Assembly (NCBI GenBank): GCA_021773135.1
Contig: JAJFKP010000055.1
Coordinates: 62,001 to 126,000 of the forward strand
From: Woeseiaceae bacterium
GTDB taxonomy: Bacteria; Pseudomonadota; Gammaproteobacteria; Steroidobacterales; Woeseiaceae
Reading direction: 5' to 3'
Length of the DNA: 64,000 bases
The notes under the pieces are model-generated. The model was not told where the DNA came from and made no database searches. It saw only the letters and a list, made by a program, of their open reading frames with translations. Below are positions 12,092-63,106 of this stretch, in pieces (within the stretch, counting starts at the first letter, position 1; each line of letters opens with the position of its first letter). Made by a program: the position numbers and the translations under genes.

Positions 12092-14737
12092 ATGACAGTA
12101 TTGCAGGATCATGAATCTGCGGGTCAGGTAGACGCGCAGCTCGTCCATGCGCATGGCATGGCGGCAATGATAACGCTACTAATCGCGATGGTTTTTGGCA
12201 TTATCATTTCGCTACAGTTTTTTCTTCCCGACCTTACGGGAAGCTGGCTGCCCATGGGTTGGGGGCGCCTGCGCTATGCCCATACCCAGGGCATCATGCT
12301 CGGCTGGCTGGGGAATGCGTTTCTTGCCTTTCTGTATCACGCCGTTCCGATCCTGACCGGCAAACCGGTGACCAGTCACAAACTTGGCCTCTGGCTGTTT
12401 GGTATCTGGAATTTCGCAGTAATGCTGCCGGGATGGATCCTGGTGCTTGCCGGCATTAGCCAGCCACTCGAATGGGCAGAGTTTCCGCTGGCTGTCGACG
12501 CTGTCGTCATTGTCGCGTTTCTCATGGCGGCCGTGCAGTTCCTGCCGCCGTTTTTTCGTCGCGGTCTCGAAAACCTGTACGTATCCAGCTGGTACATCAT
12601 TGGTGGGCTGATATTCACGCTGATGTCCTACCCGATGGGCAATATCGTGCCCGAGTTTGTGCCGGGCGCGGCAGGTGCCGCATTTAGCGGCCTCTGGATT
12701 CACGATGCGGTAGGATTGTTCGTAACGCCGCTGGCGCTGGCTATCCTGTACTTTGTTATCCCGGCCTCAACCGGGCGACCCATTTACAGCCACTTCCTCT
12801 CGATGCTGGGTTTCTGGGGCTTGTTTTTCCTCTATCCGCTCAACGGCACGCATCACTACATCTTCTCTGTCATTCCGATGGAAGCGCAAATTACGGCGAT
12901 TGCAGCGTCAGCGCTGCTCGGCGTCATCGTCGTCATTGTCGTGTCAAACCTCATGCTGTCACAACGCGGCGCCGGATGGCTGCCGCGAGACCCCGGGCTT
13001 CGTTTCGCATCAATGTCGGTCGTGTTTTACCTGGTGGTGAGCGTACAGGGGGCCATGCAGGCGCAAATGAGCCTTAACCAGGCCGTCCACTTTACTGATT
13101 GGGTGATCGGGCACTCGCATCTCGCGATGCTCGGGTTTGCGACCTTCGCAGGTATTGCCGGGATTGTGCATGCCTGGCAGCGCCTGCCGTCTGTGCGTTA
13201 CAACGCTCTGGCCATTGACTGGGCCTATGGTCTTCTCGTGGTCGGCATCACGATCATGTTCCTGGACTTGACCATCGCAGGCGTCATCCAGGGCAAGCTG
13301 TGGCAGGCGGGCGCGCCCTGGCTGGAATCTATTCAGGCATCGCGACCTTACTGGGTGATTCGATCACTATCGGCGATACCGATTGCGGCCGGCTTTATCG
13401 CCCTGCTGGCAGGCCTGACCACCGGTCCGCGGCGAGCCGGAAACCGCACAGTATCCGGCGAGATGCCACAGCAGGCGGCAGAGGTTCAACCCGTACTTGC
13501 CGCAACACCAGACAAGACACTGATGATGTCGTATGTCGTCGCCTCAATCGCAGGGGTCGCCTTTTTTGTAATGTCGGTGTCGCTCCTGGGCGTCTGGCCG
13601 AAGCAGGTTCTGGCAGAACAATCGGCCCTGATGGCACCGCAGAACCCGCTGCCGCCCACCACTGCCGAAGAACGCGGACGCGTAATCTACGCTCGTGAGG
13701 GCTGTGCTTACTGCCACACGCAGCAGGTTCGCTATACCGCGGCTGACATCGCTCGCTTTGGCGCAGCGACGCTGGCCTGGGAAACGCGTTTCGACTATCC
13801 ACACGTGCTTGGCACACGACGAATAGGACCTGATCTTGCGCGCGCGGGCAGAACACGCACCAAAGACTGGCATTACCTGCACCTGTTCGCACCACGAGCG
13901 GCAGTGCCGCTCTCCATAATGCCTTCCTATGCCGCACTGTTTGACGGTGCACCGGACCGTCCTTTGCAGGCAGCGCGCGACCTCGTCGCCTATATAGACA
14001 CGCTCGGCACCGCACGGGAGCTGGCCTGGCCGGAGGCAGATGAGGCCGCCCGGGCGGTAACGCTGGATGACAAGTGGGCGCAAATGTCCTTTGCGGCACC
14101 TGTGTTGAATGGACATCCTGGCCGCACACGGCCGAGAGGAAATGCACCACCATTGTCTTTGCCTGCAGCGGAAGAAGTTGGCCAACAGCTGTGGCTGGAC
14201 AACTGCTCAGGCTGCCACGGCGACGAAGGGCGCGGTGACGGACCTGGCGCTCAATGGCTAAAACCGCAACCAACGAATCTGACTGTGCGCGAGTATTCCA
14301 GCAGTCGTCTCGCGGATGTCCTGTGGAACGGTGTGCACGGCAGCGCCATGCCGGCCTGGCGCGATCAGGCGCCTGAGAATCTGGCGGCCCTGGCCAACGT
14401 TGTGCTCGGTTTCAGTGACATCGTTGAAGTGGCCCCGCCCTCACCTGCCGAACTCACACTTGGCGAACTTGTCTACCAGACTCATTGCGCCGAATGTCAC
14501 GGTGACGGCGGTGGTGGCGATGGATTTGCGGCCAACGACTTTCCGATCACGCCGTCTGACTTTCGCGGTGAACGCCCGAGCTATGCAGAAAGCGTTCGAA
14601 TTTTAAAGAATGGTGTGGAAGGTACATCAATGGCTCCCTGGACAGACAGGCTGGATGACGAAGAGATATTGGCTGTAGCCCACTACGTCAGGCAATTTTT
14701 CGCCGGCGGCGACAACCCGACAGGAGCCAGCCAGTGA
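12092..14737 (+). CDS. ccoN: Single-chain cbb3-type cytochrome oxidase: CcoN + CcoO + diheme CcoP-like fusion
   Basis: Reduces O2 with electrons from c-type cytochromes. Residues 1-450 are CcoN: the heme b ligand region AHTQG, the CuB His204, the helix with Tyr248 (cross-link position) and His254/His255 in YPLNGTHHY, and the heme-binding GHSH (341/343). A linker helix (about 475-500) leads into a CcoO-like domain with CxxCH at 538-542, GTRRIGPDLAR and the Met-ligand region IMPSY. Two further c-heme domains follow, CSGCH 705-709 and CAECH 799-803, which take the place of CcoP. A GGCGGGG ribosome site precedes the ATG. No assembly genes (ccoGHIS) are in the window. Confidence 0.95.
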   Translation: MTVLQDHESAGQVDAQLVHAHGMAAMITLLIAMVFGIIISLQFFLPDLTGSWLPMGWGRLRYAHTQGIMLGWLGNAFLAFLYHAVPILTGKPVTSHKLGLWLFGIWNFAVMLPGWILVLAGISQPLEWAEFPLAVDAVVIVAFLMAAVQFLPPFFRRGLENLYVSSWYIIGGLIFTLMSYPMGNIVPEFVPGAAGAAFSGLWIHDAVGLFVTPLALAILYFVIPASTGRPIYSHFLSMLGFWGLFFLYPLNGTHHYIFSVIPMEAQITAIAASALLGVIVVIVVSNLMLSQRGAGWLPRDPGLRFASMSVVFYLVVSVQGAMQAQMSLNQAVHFTDWVIGHSHLAMLGFATFAGIAGIVHAWQRLPSVRYNALAIDWAYGLLVVGITIMFLDLTIAGVIQGKLWQAGAPWLESIQASRPYWVIRSLSAIPIAAGFIALLAGLTTGPRRAGNRTVSGEMPQQAAEVQPVLAATPDKTLMMSYVVASIAGVAFFVMSVSLLGVWPKQVLAEQSALMAPQNPLPPTTAEERGRVIYAREGCAYCHTQQVRYTAADIARFGAATLAWETRFDYPHVLGTRRIGPDLARAGRTRTKDWHYLHLFAPRAAVPLSIMPSYAALFDGAPDRPLQAARDLVAYIDTLGTARELAWPEADEAARAVTLDDKWAQMSFAAPVLNGHPGRTRPRGNAPPLSLPAAEEVGQQLWLDNCSGCHGDEGRGDGPGAQWLKPQPTNLTVREYSSSRLADVLWNGVHGSAMPAWRDQAPENLAALANVVLGFSDIVEVAPPSPAELTLGELVYQTHCAECHGDGGGGDGFAANDFPITPSDFRGERPSYAESVRILKNGVEGTSMAPWTDRLDDEEILAVAHYVRQFFAGGDNPTGASQ

Positions 14738-14925
14738 TTGCAGCCATTATTGTTTGCCTGTCCGTGTTTTTCGCACTGGTATTTACGCTCGCGTATTTCC
14801 TGAAGGCGGACCTGAGAGATCAGATCGAGCGACCCAAATACGCGTTTCAGGACCAGCTCCGGCGCTATAATTGCGAAACCAGCAACGCCAATTCAACCAA
14901 CGCGAGCACTTCGGATGAGCAATAA
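14734..14925 (+). CDS. Small single-span membrane protein of the oxidase operon
   Basis: A 63-aa protein with one hydrophobic helix (about residues 2-23) followed by a charged tail. Its GTG start overlaps the oxidase stop by 4 bp, and its 3' end overlaps the next cytochrome gene by 11 bp. Size and position recall CcoQ or CcoS, but I see no diagnostic motif, so a role in oxidase stability or assembly is inference from context. Confidence 0.6.
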   Translation: MIAAIIVCLSVFFALVFTLAYFLKADLRDQIERPKYAFQDQLRRYNCETSNANSTNASTSDEQ

Positions 14926-15960: not shown

Positions 15961-17097
15961 CTACATCATTTTCTTGTTAGATAATTCCGTACTGTTGATA
16001 GGAATCATCAGATGGGCGGCTGGCGTGCCCTCACGCATCATCCACGGCAGGCCTTGCCCTGCCAGCGAGTTGTCGCGCTGACTGCCGGTCGGCATGCCGA
16101 GCTCGACGGACGTGGCATTGGGCAGGCGCAGCACCCAAAGCAGCTTAAGGCGATCATCCTCTTCATACAGGCGGTAGGCAATTGAGCCAATCGGTGCCGT
16201 TGCTAGGACACCGCTGTCCCGGGCCGCGGTCACAGCTGTGCCGATCTCCTCATTTGATTTTCCTTCCGCAGCAAGTTTCGCGCGCAGGTCAGTTTCGGGG
16301 CCGAGACTCTTGTGATAGCAACGGGTAAATCCGGATGCTTCGTCACGCGCGCGGCACTCGATCATGTTGTTGCCCTCGCGCAGCACCTGTCGTTCGCCAG
16401 ATTCGTCATACGTAATGACGGTCGCCCCGTCACGAAGATCCTCCGGCAGCGGCAGCGTGCCCTGGACGACCAGGTCGGTAATCGCCTTCGTATCCATCCT
16501 CTCCGGCGCACCGCCGGCATTCGAGAGCGCTGTGCCATTAATGGGAATCATGAGGTGCGCCGACGGCGTGCCTTCCCGCATCATCCAGGGCCGGCCCATA
16601 CCAGCCAGTGAATTGTCCCGCTGGCTTGCGAGTGACATGCCAAGTTCGTCAGCAGTTGCATTCGGCAGGAAGACAACCCACAACAGCTGAATGCGGTCAT
16701 CTTTTTCGTACAACCTGTAGAACATCGTGCCGAATGGCATTGGCTCCACTTCGCCAGCCTCCTCCGCAGCCCGCATGGCAGCCTGCAGTTCTTCGCCTTC
16801 CAGACCGCTTGCAGCGAGTTTCGCACTGAAATCGCGATTTGCCGCGGTCTTTTTCGAAGTACAGGAGGTAAAGCCGTTTTCGTCCCGCGGCTTACACTCG
16901 ACGTGATTGGACCCGCCTCGCAAGATTAGCCGCTGTCCGGCTTCGTTGTATTCGTACACCGCGGCGCCCGCCCGTAATTCTTCCGGCAGTGGCAATACCG
17001 CCTGCGCAATCTTTTCTTCTTTGGTCTGCGCGCCTGATACACCAGAAATTGCGACCCCGAACAGCGTCAGGGTCAACGTCACTATGATTTTTTTCAT
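15961..17097 (-). CDS. Secreted protein of two tandem copies of one unrecognised domain
   Basis: A Sec signal peptide (MKKIIVTLTLTLFGVAISG) is followed by two halves of about 165 residues that align over their whole length. Each half begins LPLPE-LR-GA, contains YRLYE-DDR, LPNAT, ELGM, SQRDNSLAG, PWMMREGTP and ends AHLMIPIN-T-LSN; cysteines are also conserved between halves. I recognise no family or catalytic motif. It lies 23 bp after the DsrE-like gene on the same strand and converges on tsdA. Confidence 0.8.
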   Translation of the reverse strand: MKKIIVTLTLTLFGVAISGVSGAQTKEEKIAQAVLPLPEELRAGAAVYEYNEAGQRLILRGGSNHVECKPRDENGFTSCTSKKTAANRDFSAKLAASGLEGEELQAAMRAAEEAGEVEPMPFGTMFYRLYEKDDRIQLLWVVFLPNATADELGMSLASQRDNSLAGMGRPWMMREGTPSAHLMIPINGTALSNAGGAPERMDTKAITDLVVQGTLPLPEDLRDGATVITYDESGERQVLREGNNMIECRARDEASGFTRCYHKSLGPETDLRAKLAAEGKSNEEIGTAVTAARDSGVLATAPIGSIAYRLYEEDDRLKLLWVLRLPNATSVELGMPTGSQRDNSLAGQGLPWMMREGTPAAHLMIPINSTELSNKKMM

Positions 17098-17120: not shown

Positions 17121-17807
17121 TTAGCCGGTATACAGCAAGCTGTAGCCATATTCCTGTGCCCGAGTCGCTGCCACAACGCCGGCGGCAACAAAGCGGCTGT
17201 TGGGAACAGCCGAAGCGATAAAATCGGCATAAATATCCTTTGCATCACCGAATCCAGCTCTCGAAAGCGCCATCGAGATTACGTTCGCGGCATTGTCGCA
17301 AACTGCGAATTTGACGCCACGGGCACCTAATGACTCGATGGTGTTGCCGCGATTGGGAAGACTGCGGAGTCCTTGCACCTGCATCAGATTTACTTTCGGC
17401 GCTGCCCCGGTTGATGGATCGGCGAAGCCAACCACATTGTAAAAACCTTCCCCATACTTCTCCCAGACCTCGTCGCCAAAACCGAAAACGGTCGAATAGT
17501 GGCGCAGGCAAACAATCATCGCGTAATCCGATTCCTGTGCGCCTGCATAGGCCTTGGTGTGGGCATTAAGGATGTTATTTGCATACAACATTGCCACCGC
17601 ACCACCATCTGGCGTGGACGAATCGAGGAAGGCACGGTGACCACCCTCCATTTGATCCAACCACGCATCCTCGGCGTGGCGTGTAGGCTCAAAGCCACTG
17701 CTCGCGGCCTGCGCCGTCGAAGCGCCGCCCGCAGCTGCGGCGGCAGCGATCCCGATACCCGACAATACTGATCGCCGATCAATTATGTCGTTGTTTTTAT
17801 TAGACAA
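17121..17807 (-). CDS. Tat-exported DsrE/DsrF-like protein
   Basis: I place the start at a TTG with GGGGAAGGA upstream; this puts a twin-arginine signal (DRRSVLSGIGIAAAAAAGG) at residue 10. The mature part has a DsrE-like pattern: an acidic N-terminal strand region, AMIVCLRHYST, a conserved cysteine in KFAVCDNAANVISM, and a C-terminal SRFVAAGVVAATRAQEYGY resembling the family end. DsrE-type proteins bind or transfer sulfur in the cytoplasm; an exported version has unknown function. The longer ATG frame would break the Tat signal spacing. Confidence 0.65.
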   Translation of the reverse strand: MSNKNNDIIDRRSVLSGIGIAAAAAAGGASTAQAASSGFEPTRHAEDAWLDQMEGGHRAFLDSSTPDGGAVAMLYANNILNAHTKAYAGAQESDYAMIVCLRHYSTVFGFGDEVWEKYGEGFYNVVGFADPSTGAAPKVNLMQVQGLRSLPNRGNTIESLGARGVKFAVCDNAANVISMALSRAGFGDAKDIYADFIASAVPNSRFVAAGVVAATRAQEYGYSLLYTG

Positions 17808-17905
17808 TTTTCCTTCCCCCGAGTGCAGTAGCACCGAATCATGAAACTGTGCAGACATTCAACTACAGCCGGCGTATGCGGTCAATTGAAGCTCACATAA
17901 TCCCG

Positions 17906-61825: not shown

Positions 61826-63106
61826 CTATTTATTCTTGTATACGATGCCACCTTTCATTACGAAATCGACATCTTCGAGCTCGCTGATATCGGCAAGGGG
61901 ATTGCCATTGACCGCAATGATGTCGGCGAACATTCCTGGTGCAATCTGGCCAACACGATCCTCCCAACCCAGCAGCTCGGCAGTAAGTGTTGTTGCCGAC
62001 TGGATCGCCTGCGCCGGCGTCATACCAAATCGAACGGCGCGCGCAAATTGTTTGCCGTTATCCCCGTGCGGGTAAACGCCCGAGTCTGTCGCGAAGACAA
62101 CTTTTGCACCCATCTCGACAGCTAGCGTAAAGCTTTGGCGCTGACGAGTTCCTACTTCACGTTCCTTATTAATGTTTTCCTCCGGAACGCCGTTTGCCGC
62201 GCCCATCTCAAGCGTGTACTCGGTGTTGTAAATATCAATCGCAAAATAGGTGCCGCGATCAATACCCATTTGAATAGCCTCCCTGTCCAGGAAACTCGCA
62301 TGTTCTATCGAGTCGACTCCCGCCGTAATCGCGCGCTTGATGCCCTCATTGCCATGCGCATGTGCCGCCACTTTACGATCGTGCGTGTGCGACTCATCGA
62401 CAATCGCCTGCATTTCCTCGAGCGTGTACTGCGTCATGCCGACTTTCGTCCCCTTTGAAAAGACGCCACCTGTTGCGCAAAACTTGGTGAGATCGGCACC
62501 ATATTTAACGTTCTTACGTACTTTCTCGCGCACAGCCCAGGGGCCGTCCGCAACTCCGTCACTGCGTTCCTCGAAAGAAGAATTAAGACTATTGTTGTCG
62601 CAGTGCCCGCCAGTAATGCCCAGGCTGGGACCGGAAACCGCCATACGTGGGCCGGGTATTTCGCCGGCGTCAATCGCGTTACGCAACGCGATATCTGCGT
62701 AGTCTGAAGCGCCGACGTTACGAATGGTTGTAAATCCGGCCATAAGGGTCTTCCTGGCATTGACCACACCGCCGATGGTAGCTCTGTGCGGGGACTGGAA
62801 ATACCCGGCAAAAAAGTAGTTGTCCAGGTTGCCAACCACATGAGTATGCATGTCCATTACGCCAGGAAGCACAAATGAAGACGACAAATCGACCACTTCA
62901 GCATCAACCGGGATGTCGATGCCTGAATCGCCTACTGCGGTAATCCTGTCATCCTCGACGACGATCACAGCATCTCGACTGACCCTGCCAGTACGGGAAT
63001 CAAACAATGAACCCGCTTTTATATAGGTTGTCTCGGCCAGTGCCGAACTGATCAGCAATGCAGCGACAGCAGCCGCGCCCCCGATACGTCTTATCCAGTT
63101 GTGCAT
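61826..63106 (-). CDS. Secreted metal-dependent amidohydrolase (imidazolonepropionase-like)
   Basis: Signal peptide (IGGAAAVAALLISSALA). The HxH metal motif is at His87/His89 (MDMHTHVVGN); further ligands in VAAHAHGNEGI, SIEHASFLD and the Asp in FATDSGVYPHGDN. It belongs to the exported amidohydrolases that act as prolidase-like dipeptidases. 426 aa, full length. The palindrome array follows its stop. Confidence 0.9.
   Translation of the reverse strand: MHNWIRRIGGAAAVAALLISSALAETTYIKAGSLFDSRTGRVSRDAVIVVEDDRITAVGDSGIDIPVDAEVVDLSSSFVLPGVMDMHTHVVGNLDNYFFAGYFQSPHRATIGGVVNARKTLMAGFTTIRNVGASDYADIALRNAIDAGEIPGPRMAVSGPSLGITGGHCDNNSLNSSFEERSDGVADGPWAVREKVRKNVKYGADLTKFCATGGVFSKGTKVGMTQYTLEEMQAIVDESHTHDRKVAAHAHGNEGIKRAITAGVDSIEHASFLDREAIQMGIDRGTYFAIDIYNTEYTLEMGAANGVPEENINKEREVGTRQRQSFTLAVEMGAKVVFATDSGVYPHGDNGKQFARAVRFGMTPAQAIQSATTLTAELLGWEDRVGQIAPGMFADIIAVNGNPLADISELEDVDFVMKGGIVYKNK

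Follow-up and report, generated by a model that had tools for sequence, protein, structure and literature searches.

A single-chain cbb3-type oxidase of a distinct CcoN clade, encoded beside a thiosulfate dehydrogenase-type cytochrome in a Woeseiaceae bacterium

We describe a gene cluster in a 64,000-nucleotide stretch of DNA (the window: positions 62,001 to 126,000 of contig JAJFKP010000055.1, assembly GCA_021773135.1) from a Woeseiaceae bacterium, in which one frame encodes the CcoN, CcoO and CcoP parts of a cbb3-type oxidase (N-O-P). Its end overlaps the gene of a small one-helix protein, which in turn overlaps that of a TsdA-type cytochrome, and two conserved neighbours lie on the other strand (Table 1). 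The overlapping small-protein and TsdA genes, absent from the first-pass annotation of the oxidase, are the best clue to its function, and the link of a distinct oxidase clade with sulfur dehydrogenases is a better finding than the fusion itself.

Table 1. Features of the oxidase locus (coordinates within the window)
Feature	Coordinates	Strand	Remarks
N-O-P fused cbb3-type (C-family) oxidase	12092..14737	+	881 aa, ATG start, without internal stop
CcoN-type domain, residues 15-449, 12 membrane helices, heme b/heme b3/CuB ligands	12134..13438	+	
CcoO-type domain, residues 476-640, one membrane helix 476-514, heme c motif CAYCH 538-542, Met610	13517..14011	+	FixO 4.8e-34
CcoP-type diheme domain, residues 690-870, without CcoP membrane anchor	14159..14701	+	Cytochrome_CBB3, phmmer to CcoP chains
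63-aa one-helix protein, E-x-PK motif, GTG start	14734..14925	+	overlaps oxidase frame by 4 bases (GTGA, 14734-14737)
TsdA-type diheme cytochrome c (thiosulfate dehydrogenase family), hydrophobic N-terminal segment	14915..15886	+	overlaps small gene by 11 bases (14915-14925)
378-aa two-repeat protein, likely signal peptide, conserved neighbour	15961..17097	-	alignment A4, model pLDDT 87.9
245-aa protein, invariant twin arginine R28 R29 and Cys187, weakly DsrE/TetH-like, conserved neighbour	17121..17858	-	alignment A3

Along the 881-aa protein, Pfam finds COX1 (residues 19-428, 1.5e-56), FixO (491-623, 4.8e-34) and two stretches of Cytochrome_CBB3 (the best at 787-866, 3.1e-25), and phmmer aligns the chains of the Pseudomonas stutzeri enzyme 3mk7 in order as CcoN (3.9e-37), CcoO (1.6e-25) and CcoP (7.8e-7), the C-terminal diheme part matching the CcoP chains 8smr_G and 3mk7_C. 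All six CcoN histidine ligands are present (H64, H204, H254, H255, H341 and H343, corresponding to P. stutzeri H60, H207, H257, H258, H345 and H347), as are the active-site tyrosine of helix VII (Tyr248, P. stutzeri Y251) and the channel residues Tyr220, Ser237 and Tyr313. CxxCH occurs three times, beginning at C538, C705 and C799, and none of the 36 rows of alignment A2 departs from the likely heme methionine ligands M610, M753 and M847; this alignment joins the window to 35 loci (33 of the 44 fused loci described below, plus L010 and L038). The protein thus has the six histidines, the helix-VII tyrosine and the monoheme CcoO-type domain of the C-family (cbb3-type) enzymes, and its identity as an O2-reducing heme-copper oxidase of this family is well supported, O2 being the substrate that its residues predict; the conserved tyrosine and channel residues speak for O2 and for protons being taken up through the known channel.

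An AlphaFold2 model (mean predicted local distance difference test [pLDDT] 80.9, predicted template modelling score 0.82) has the 12 CcoN helices, the further membrane helix 476-514 and then soluble domains, with the surroundings of the first c heme poorly modelled (pLDDT below 50 at 539-546 and 565-578). Its CcoN part superposes on 3mk7_D with Z 43.2 and a root-mean-square deviation of 2.2 over 437 aligned residues; the next best structural match is the nitric oxide (NO) reductase 4xyd_A, with Z 39.1. A search for a membrane helix after residue 514/515 gave a maximum Kyte-Doolittle mean of 1.55 in 19-residue stretches, compared with 2.25 within helix 476-514. The complete N-O-P fusion with intact catalytic ligands that the first-pass annotation proposed is therefore borne out in one open frame, and its CcoP-like part does have two heme motifs but, with no later hydrophobic stretch, lacks the membrane anchor that a canonical CcoP subunit combines with its two hemes c. 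The fixed 1:1:1 subunit ratio claimed there holds trivially for a single chain, and a single electron path through such an oxidase is plausible.

That an assembly or sequencing error joined separate genes is a thought to which the separate N and O-P frames of other lineages lend something, but we reject it and consider its probability negligible: the frame is full-length and without stops in the congeners L009 and L010, and uninterrupted in 44 of 80 loci from other assemblies (these congeners giving four of the 44). In an order-level sample of 99 relatives, which includes the window's own genome and 12 genomes of its genus, strong matches (E 4.3e-133 or better) occur in six genomes including its own, all within the genus, with congeners' oxidases 67-74% identical to the window's; the matches of L011 and L012 end at contig ends, and that of genome G002 lies in two contig pieces. 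In even samples, 3 of 369 genomes of the class and 3 of 398 of the phylum had strong matches (E 1e-75), each count including the own genome; the others are L038 and L041 (distant, fused), L040 (N apart from O-P) and L039 (an N-O match with an internal stop).

When named genomes were scanned with a CcoN alignment, 224 relatives emerged, and the best 80 of these, chosen by CcoN alone, were analysed as loci (L043, L048, L102 and L109 are the same contigs as L009-L012, with identical rows). CcoN and three heme motifs share one frame in 44 of these loci (L085, L102 and L109 being cut at one end), CcoN stands in a frame without heme motifs in 33, and three are cut too early to tell. By record title, the fused loci belong to Proteobacteria (34: Woeseia, Pseudomonadales, other Gammaproteobacteria and two titled Rhodospirillaceae), Melainabacteria/Cyanobacteria (6), Acidiferrum (2), Acidimicrobiia (1) and Vicinamibacterales (1), and the unfused loci to Acidobacteriota under various names, except L107 (Gammaproteobacteria); most Acidobacteriota loci have two chains, N and O-P. 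In the CcoN tree L107 (5965-8351) falls among Acidobacteriota, and its CcoO match is broken in two; mis-binning, transfer and frameshift are candidate explanations. The description of the fusion as unusual is thus only partly right, because such fusions, rare in the order (6 of 99, one genus), have been published since 2013 and are common in their own clade (44 of the best 80 loci).

Besides this gene, the own genome has six of the COX1 family; one belongs to the canonical locus L122 on contig C31, where ccoN is followed by O-, Q- and P-like open reading frames (ORFs; identified by eye). The first-pass annotation had suggested looking for ccoGHIS elsewhere, and in this locus Pfam identifies ccoG and ccoS, inspection by eye a CcoI-like ORF, and a 98-aa ORF with no Pfam match stands at the place of ccoH. 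Three COX1-family genes lie within about 11 kb on contig C47 (L123, 288000-306500), with SCO-like and heme-A-synthase-like ORFs nearby (by eye).

The CcoN part is of CcoN type in its ligands but is not an ordinary CcoN: it scores 163.8 bits against a cut-off of 583.15 for the canonical ccoN equivalog model TIGR00780, and it falls in a separate clade. In a CcoN tree of 117 rows (quick method, Shimodaira-Hasegawa-like approximate likelihood ratio [SH-aLRT] support, 26 other CcoN rows as outgroup), 88 rows including the window form one group with SH-aLRT 100, next to which stand three Nitrospina-type rows (L038, L041 and L128, the last from Rhizobium gallicum). In the tree and in the residue counts, these 88 rows are 84 distinct loci, L009-L012 duplicating L043, L048, L102 and L109. 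Branches are long for L128, L111, L103, L040 and L099, and the joining of L040 with two plasmid rows is to be read with caution. The label "split" requires at least five changes on the tree, three of them forced by starred branches, so that joining or splitting occurred repeatedly, in a direction that the tree does not give.

All 88 rows have the motif GLWIHD around the CuB ligand, all have glycine in place of P. stutzeri Trp203 (Gly200 in the window), and 87 have glutamine in place of Glu323 (Gln319), which we take to be an important residue of the P. stutzeri protein; the window's protein thus has neither of the two residues of a canonical ccoN product. Tyr248 is kept in all 88, Tyr220 is phenylalanine in five, His64 is a gap in four, and the other histidine and tyrosine ligands are kept. 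As some outside rows also have glutamine at 323 (6 of 26) or glycine at 203 (3 of 26), these changes alone do not define the clade. Gln319 and Gly200, together with Asp205, suggest a changed surround of the active site. The mentions of the "distal" CcoN of Ducluzeau 2008 in passages of PMC7029218, PMC8788666 and PMC10734462 do not tell whether it is this clade.

The TsdA-type neighbour matches the solved thiosulfate dehydrogenase 4v2k at E 1.3e-36, with heme motifs at 78-82 and 188-192 and a cysteine (Cys121) aligned with that of 4v2k, so that it has the two CxxCH motifs and the catalytic cysteine, as ligand of heme 1, of TsdA proteins. Cys121 is found in 68 of 68 rows and the heme-2 ligand Met240 in 67 of 67 (the catalytic cysteine of TsdA is described in passages of PMC9237845), and a hydrophobic N-terminal segment, either anchor or signal peptide, is present in 60 of 66 homologs. 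A SoxA profile run against the own genome (E at or below 0.001) found only this TsdA, below the profile cut-off. The small protein gave no reliable Pfam match; as CcoQ, CcoS or CcoP anchor it has single weak matches among 35 rows (FixQ 0.11, FixP_N 0.049), and FixS was not among the 25 families listed in the Pfam search. Promoter and terminator scans gave nothing beyond what shuffled sequences gave.

Of the 80 loci, 64 have a TsdA homolog (E 1e-10), always downstream and on the oxidase strand, with gaps of -3 to 942 bp (median 179); homologs of the small protein (E at or below 1e-4) occur in 47, of the 245-aa protein in 55 and of the 378-aa protein in 32. CcoN distances correlate with those of TsdA (r = 0.735, 64 loci) and of the 245-aa protein (r = 0.780, 51 loci), with none of 2000 permutations as high in either case (L009-L012, TsdA rows of at most 270 aa [L043] and 245-aa-protein rows of at most 200 aa left out). 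Among the 99 relatives, TsdA (E 1e-40) is found in eight, namely all six oxidase carriers and two of the 93 others, G001 and G007 (Fisher 2.5e-8, uncorrected for kinship). In G007 the contig breaks off next to TsdA, at the place expected for the oxidase; in G001 (L133, 7845-9442), the oxidase and the small gene are missing between a 123-aa ORF and TsdA, whose start looks lipoprotein-like by eye.

Sixteen loci lack TsdA, and in half of them the sequence stops 0-267 bp beyond the last oxidase match. In the other eight, which have more room, matches to a SorA-like molybdoenzyme lie upstream in seven (L113 having too little upstream sequence, L120 a fragment only), as they do in the cut locus L116. 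Genes like those of the sulfite dehydrogenase SorAB adjoin the oxidase in loci titled Melainabacteria, Cyanobacteria and Acidiferrum; five SorAB loci also hold a metallo-beta-lactamase-rhodanese protein resembling persulfide dioxygenases. SorAB lies upstream in L040, and in L131, a wider stretch of the same locus, SorA matches 2blf at 7.7e-112. The eight roomier loci and L116 sit in a 12-row tree group (support 90) with L040 (SorAB) and two plasmid rows (TsdA), so that the partners appear to have been exchanged within this group. L059, a locus with TsdA, has a distant SorA-family gene (30%) as well.

Both of these plasmids, from Paraburkholderia fungorum and Komagataeibacter xylinus, have another gene order than the window, namely cytochrome, TsdA, N, O-P and small protein. 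Both also carry a DsrE-like frame (DsrE family by annotation in P. fungorum, seen by eye in K. xylinus, L127), and YeeE/YedE genes lie nearby in P. fungorum; the oxidase-TsdA cluster is possibly a mobile sulfur-respiration cassette. Genes for substrate-binding proteins also lie near both plasmid clusters (L126, L127), and one for a transposase in K. xylinus. On the R. gallicum plasmid (L128, 4275-9056), Nitrospina/Sinorhizobium-type N and O-P genes are preceded by those of a one-heme SoxA/TsdA-type cytochrome and a metallophosphatase-like protein.

Alignments A3, A4 and A5 join the window to 37 of 55 loci, 27 loci and 34 loci, respectively, A3 being that of the 245-aa and A4 that of the 378-aa neighbour on the opposite strand. 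The 245-aa protein is DsrE-like by one Pfam match (0.0021, 1 of 38 rows) and weakly matches NF052225, the NCBIfam model "thiosulfate dehydrogenase", in 28 of 38 rows (23.6 bits for the window against a cut-off of 300); a PDB sequence search up to E 5 returned 13 weak matches, the best at 0.097, nearly all antibody or nanobody chains. The 378-aa protein had no Pfam match up to E 10, and its model had no Foldseek match at E 0.001 or better and a best VIA Z of 3.0; many relatives have one repeat of about 195 aa instead of two.

The occurrence of this oxidase family beside genes for thiosulfate or sulfite oxidation suggests an O2-reducing enzyme dedicated to sulfur compounds. We consider it probable that, in the window's genus, the oxidase is the acceptor end of a dedicated thiosulfate-oxidising (sulfur-compound:O2) respiratory module, a reading built on the domains, ligands, gene overlaps, conserved neighbours, repeated association and clade observed here. 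TsdA, encoded in the same overlapping gene set and probably held at the membrane by its N-terminal segment, would oxidise thiosulfate, the presumed donor, to tetrathionate; electrons could then pass directly from TsdA to the two C-terminal hemes, and on through the CcoO heme and heme b to the heme b3-CuB site, where O2 would be reduced. Such a route may circumvent the bc1 complex and a soluble cytochrome, the small one-helix protein may stand in for the absent CcoP/CcoQ helix, and in related lineages a SorAB-type sulfite dehydrogenase would take the place of TsdA. A wider proposal, which we put forward tentatively and hold to be somewhat short of an even chance, is that the whole clade is dedicated to periplasmic sulfur dehydrogenases, with TsdA and SorAB supercomplexes acting as thiosulfate:O2 and sulfite:O2 oxidoreductases that bypass bc1 and soluble cytochrome c and have an altered active-site surround (Gly200, Asp205, Gln319). 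The clade spans Gammaproteobacteria, Acidobacteriota, Melainabacteria and plasmids of Paraburkholderia and acetic acid bacteria. It is the sulfur-gene context that looks new, and no description of a TsdA- or SorAB-linked cbb3 clade was found in the openly licensed PMC literature, searched mostly short of full text.

Several observations weigh against such a dedicated module. TsdA is not the partner throughout the clade, as eight loci (L112-L115, L117, L118, L120 and L121) have at least 627 bp after the oxidase, yet no TsdA. In genome G001, TsdA and the two neighbours are present at the corresponding place with no oxidase between them, so TsdA can do without the oxidase, which was lost there or was never present. 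Fusion and sulfur genes need not go together, given that no other CxxCH frame is listed in 18-kb stretches around related Nitrospina-type fusions (L129 and L130, wider versions of L038 and L041). Context counts rest on the best 80 of 224 relatives, and shared host ancestry inflates both the co-occurrence and the distance statistics. TsdA enzymes can also run as tetrathionate reductases. With Trp203 and Glu323 replaced by glycine and glutamine, chemistry or proton handling may differ from the canonical enzyme.

The persistence of TsdA in G001, the cbb3-type fold and ligands, and C-terminal hemes that match ordinary CcoP and c6-type cytochromes would all suit a terminal oxidase of high affinity and general use that receives its electrons from bc1 and soluble cytochromes, for which the sulfur genes are incidental or merely co-regulated. 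We regard this as unlikely: a canonical ccoNOQP-type locus (L122) is present in this genome as well, the frames overlap, and adjacency to TsdA or SorAB recurs across different gene orders and several phyla. Less likely again is a role in redox balance or in the detoxification of reactive sulfur species (thiosulfate, persulfide, sulfite) that serves not energy but disposal, with the dehydrogenases removing these species and the oxidase as electron sink; the adjoining DsrE-like protein with its twin-arginine signal and the persulfide-dioxygenase-like protein beside SorAB in five loci point that way, while the channel residues of an energy-conserving oxidase are kept, though this is compatible with detoxification too. 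The replacement of the canonical Glu323 and Trp203, and the rank of NO reductases as next best structural matches, might indicate a NO reductase or another heme-copper reductase acting on a substrate other than O2. NO reductases (NorB) are not known to have the helix-VII tyrosine, however, and here Tyr248 is present in 88 of 88 rows and the cbb3 structural matches score higher, so that we disfavour a NO reductase identity and give any such non-O2 enzyme a very small chance.

If the thiosulfate:O2 module is real, sediment bacteria near Woeseia, along with many Acidobacteriota, would carry a self-contained machine that respires thiosulfate with oxygen and that family models list as no more than a weak cbb3 match. 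Thiosulfate oxidation of these sediment bacteria is ascribed to Sox in passages of PMC12175321, and the route from TsdA to O2 is guessed, in those of PMC9237845 that deal with it, to run via TsdB or c4 cytochromes; the module would name an oxidase partner for TsdA. It also offers a natural single-chain cbb3 core for testing the roles of Glu323 and Trp203.

Compared to the canonical CcoNOQP of P. stutzeri (3mk7), the window protein is alike in fold, heme and CuB ligands, Tyr251 and channel residues, and differs in being one chain, in lacking the CcoP anchor, in the changes Trp203 to Gly and Glu323 to Gln, and in a CcoN identity of 26%. CcoNO fusions (PRK14485, NF011053) are its best NCBIfam match, with 268.2 bits over residues 12-639; this is far under the cut-off of 1080 bits, and the match stops before the P domain. 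The neighbouring cytochrome resembles TsdA 4v2k in its two hemes, catalytic cysteine and methionine ligand, whereas its family has a hydrophobic N-terminal segment and, in 60 of 67 rows, arginine instead of lysine before the methionine. Counterparts of the SorAB sulfite:cytochrome c oxidoreductase (2blf) adjoin the oxidase of related lineages but are absent from the locus described here. The closest architectural parallel is Nitrospina gracilis, for which PMC3578206, in the passages on this enzyme, reported in 2013 three cbb3 subunits in one 954-residue protein that, like the window's, is a single-gene N-O-P fusion with 13 helices and glycine at 203, a position where Trp is given as the canonical cbb3 residue; cbb3 genes of this kind are also mentioned in parts of PMC7784846 (Ca. 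Nitrospira alkalitolerans) and PMC10839748 (other Nitrospinota). The motif described for the N. gracilis protein (His202, Gly203, Tyr205, Tyr208) is carried by L038, L041 and L128, which are of the Nitrospina/Sinorhizobium SM11 type of CcoN in that description and branch next to the window's clade, whereas the window's protein has Ser199, Gly200, Trp202 and Asp205, so that only Gly203 is common; L038 and L041 share 33% CcoN identity with it. The fused N-O-P architecture is thus already known, and the window's clade is another one that has it.

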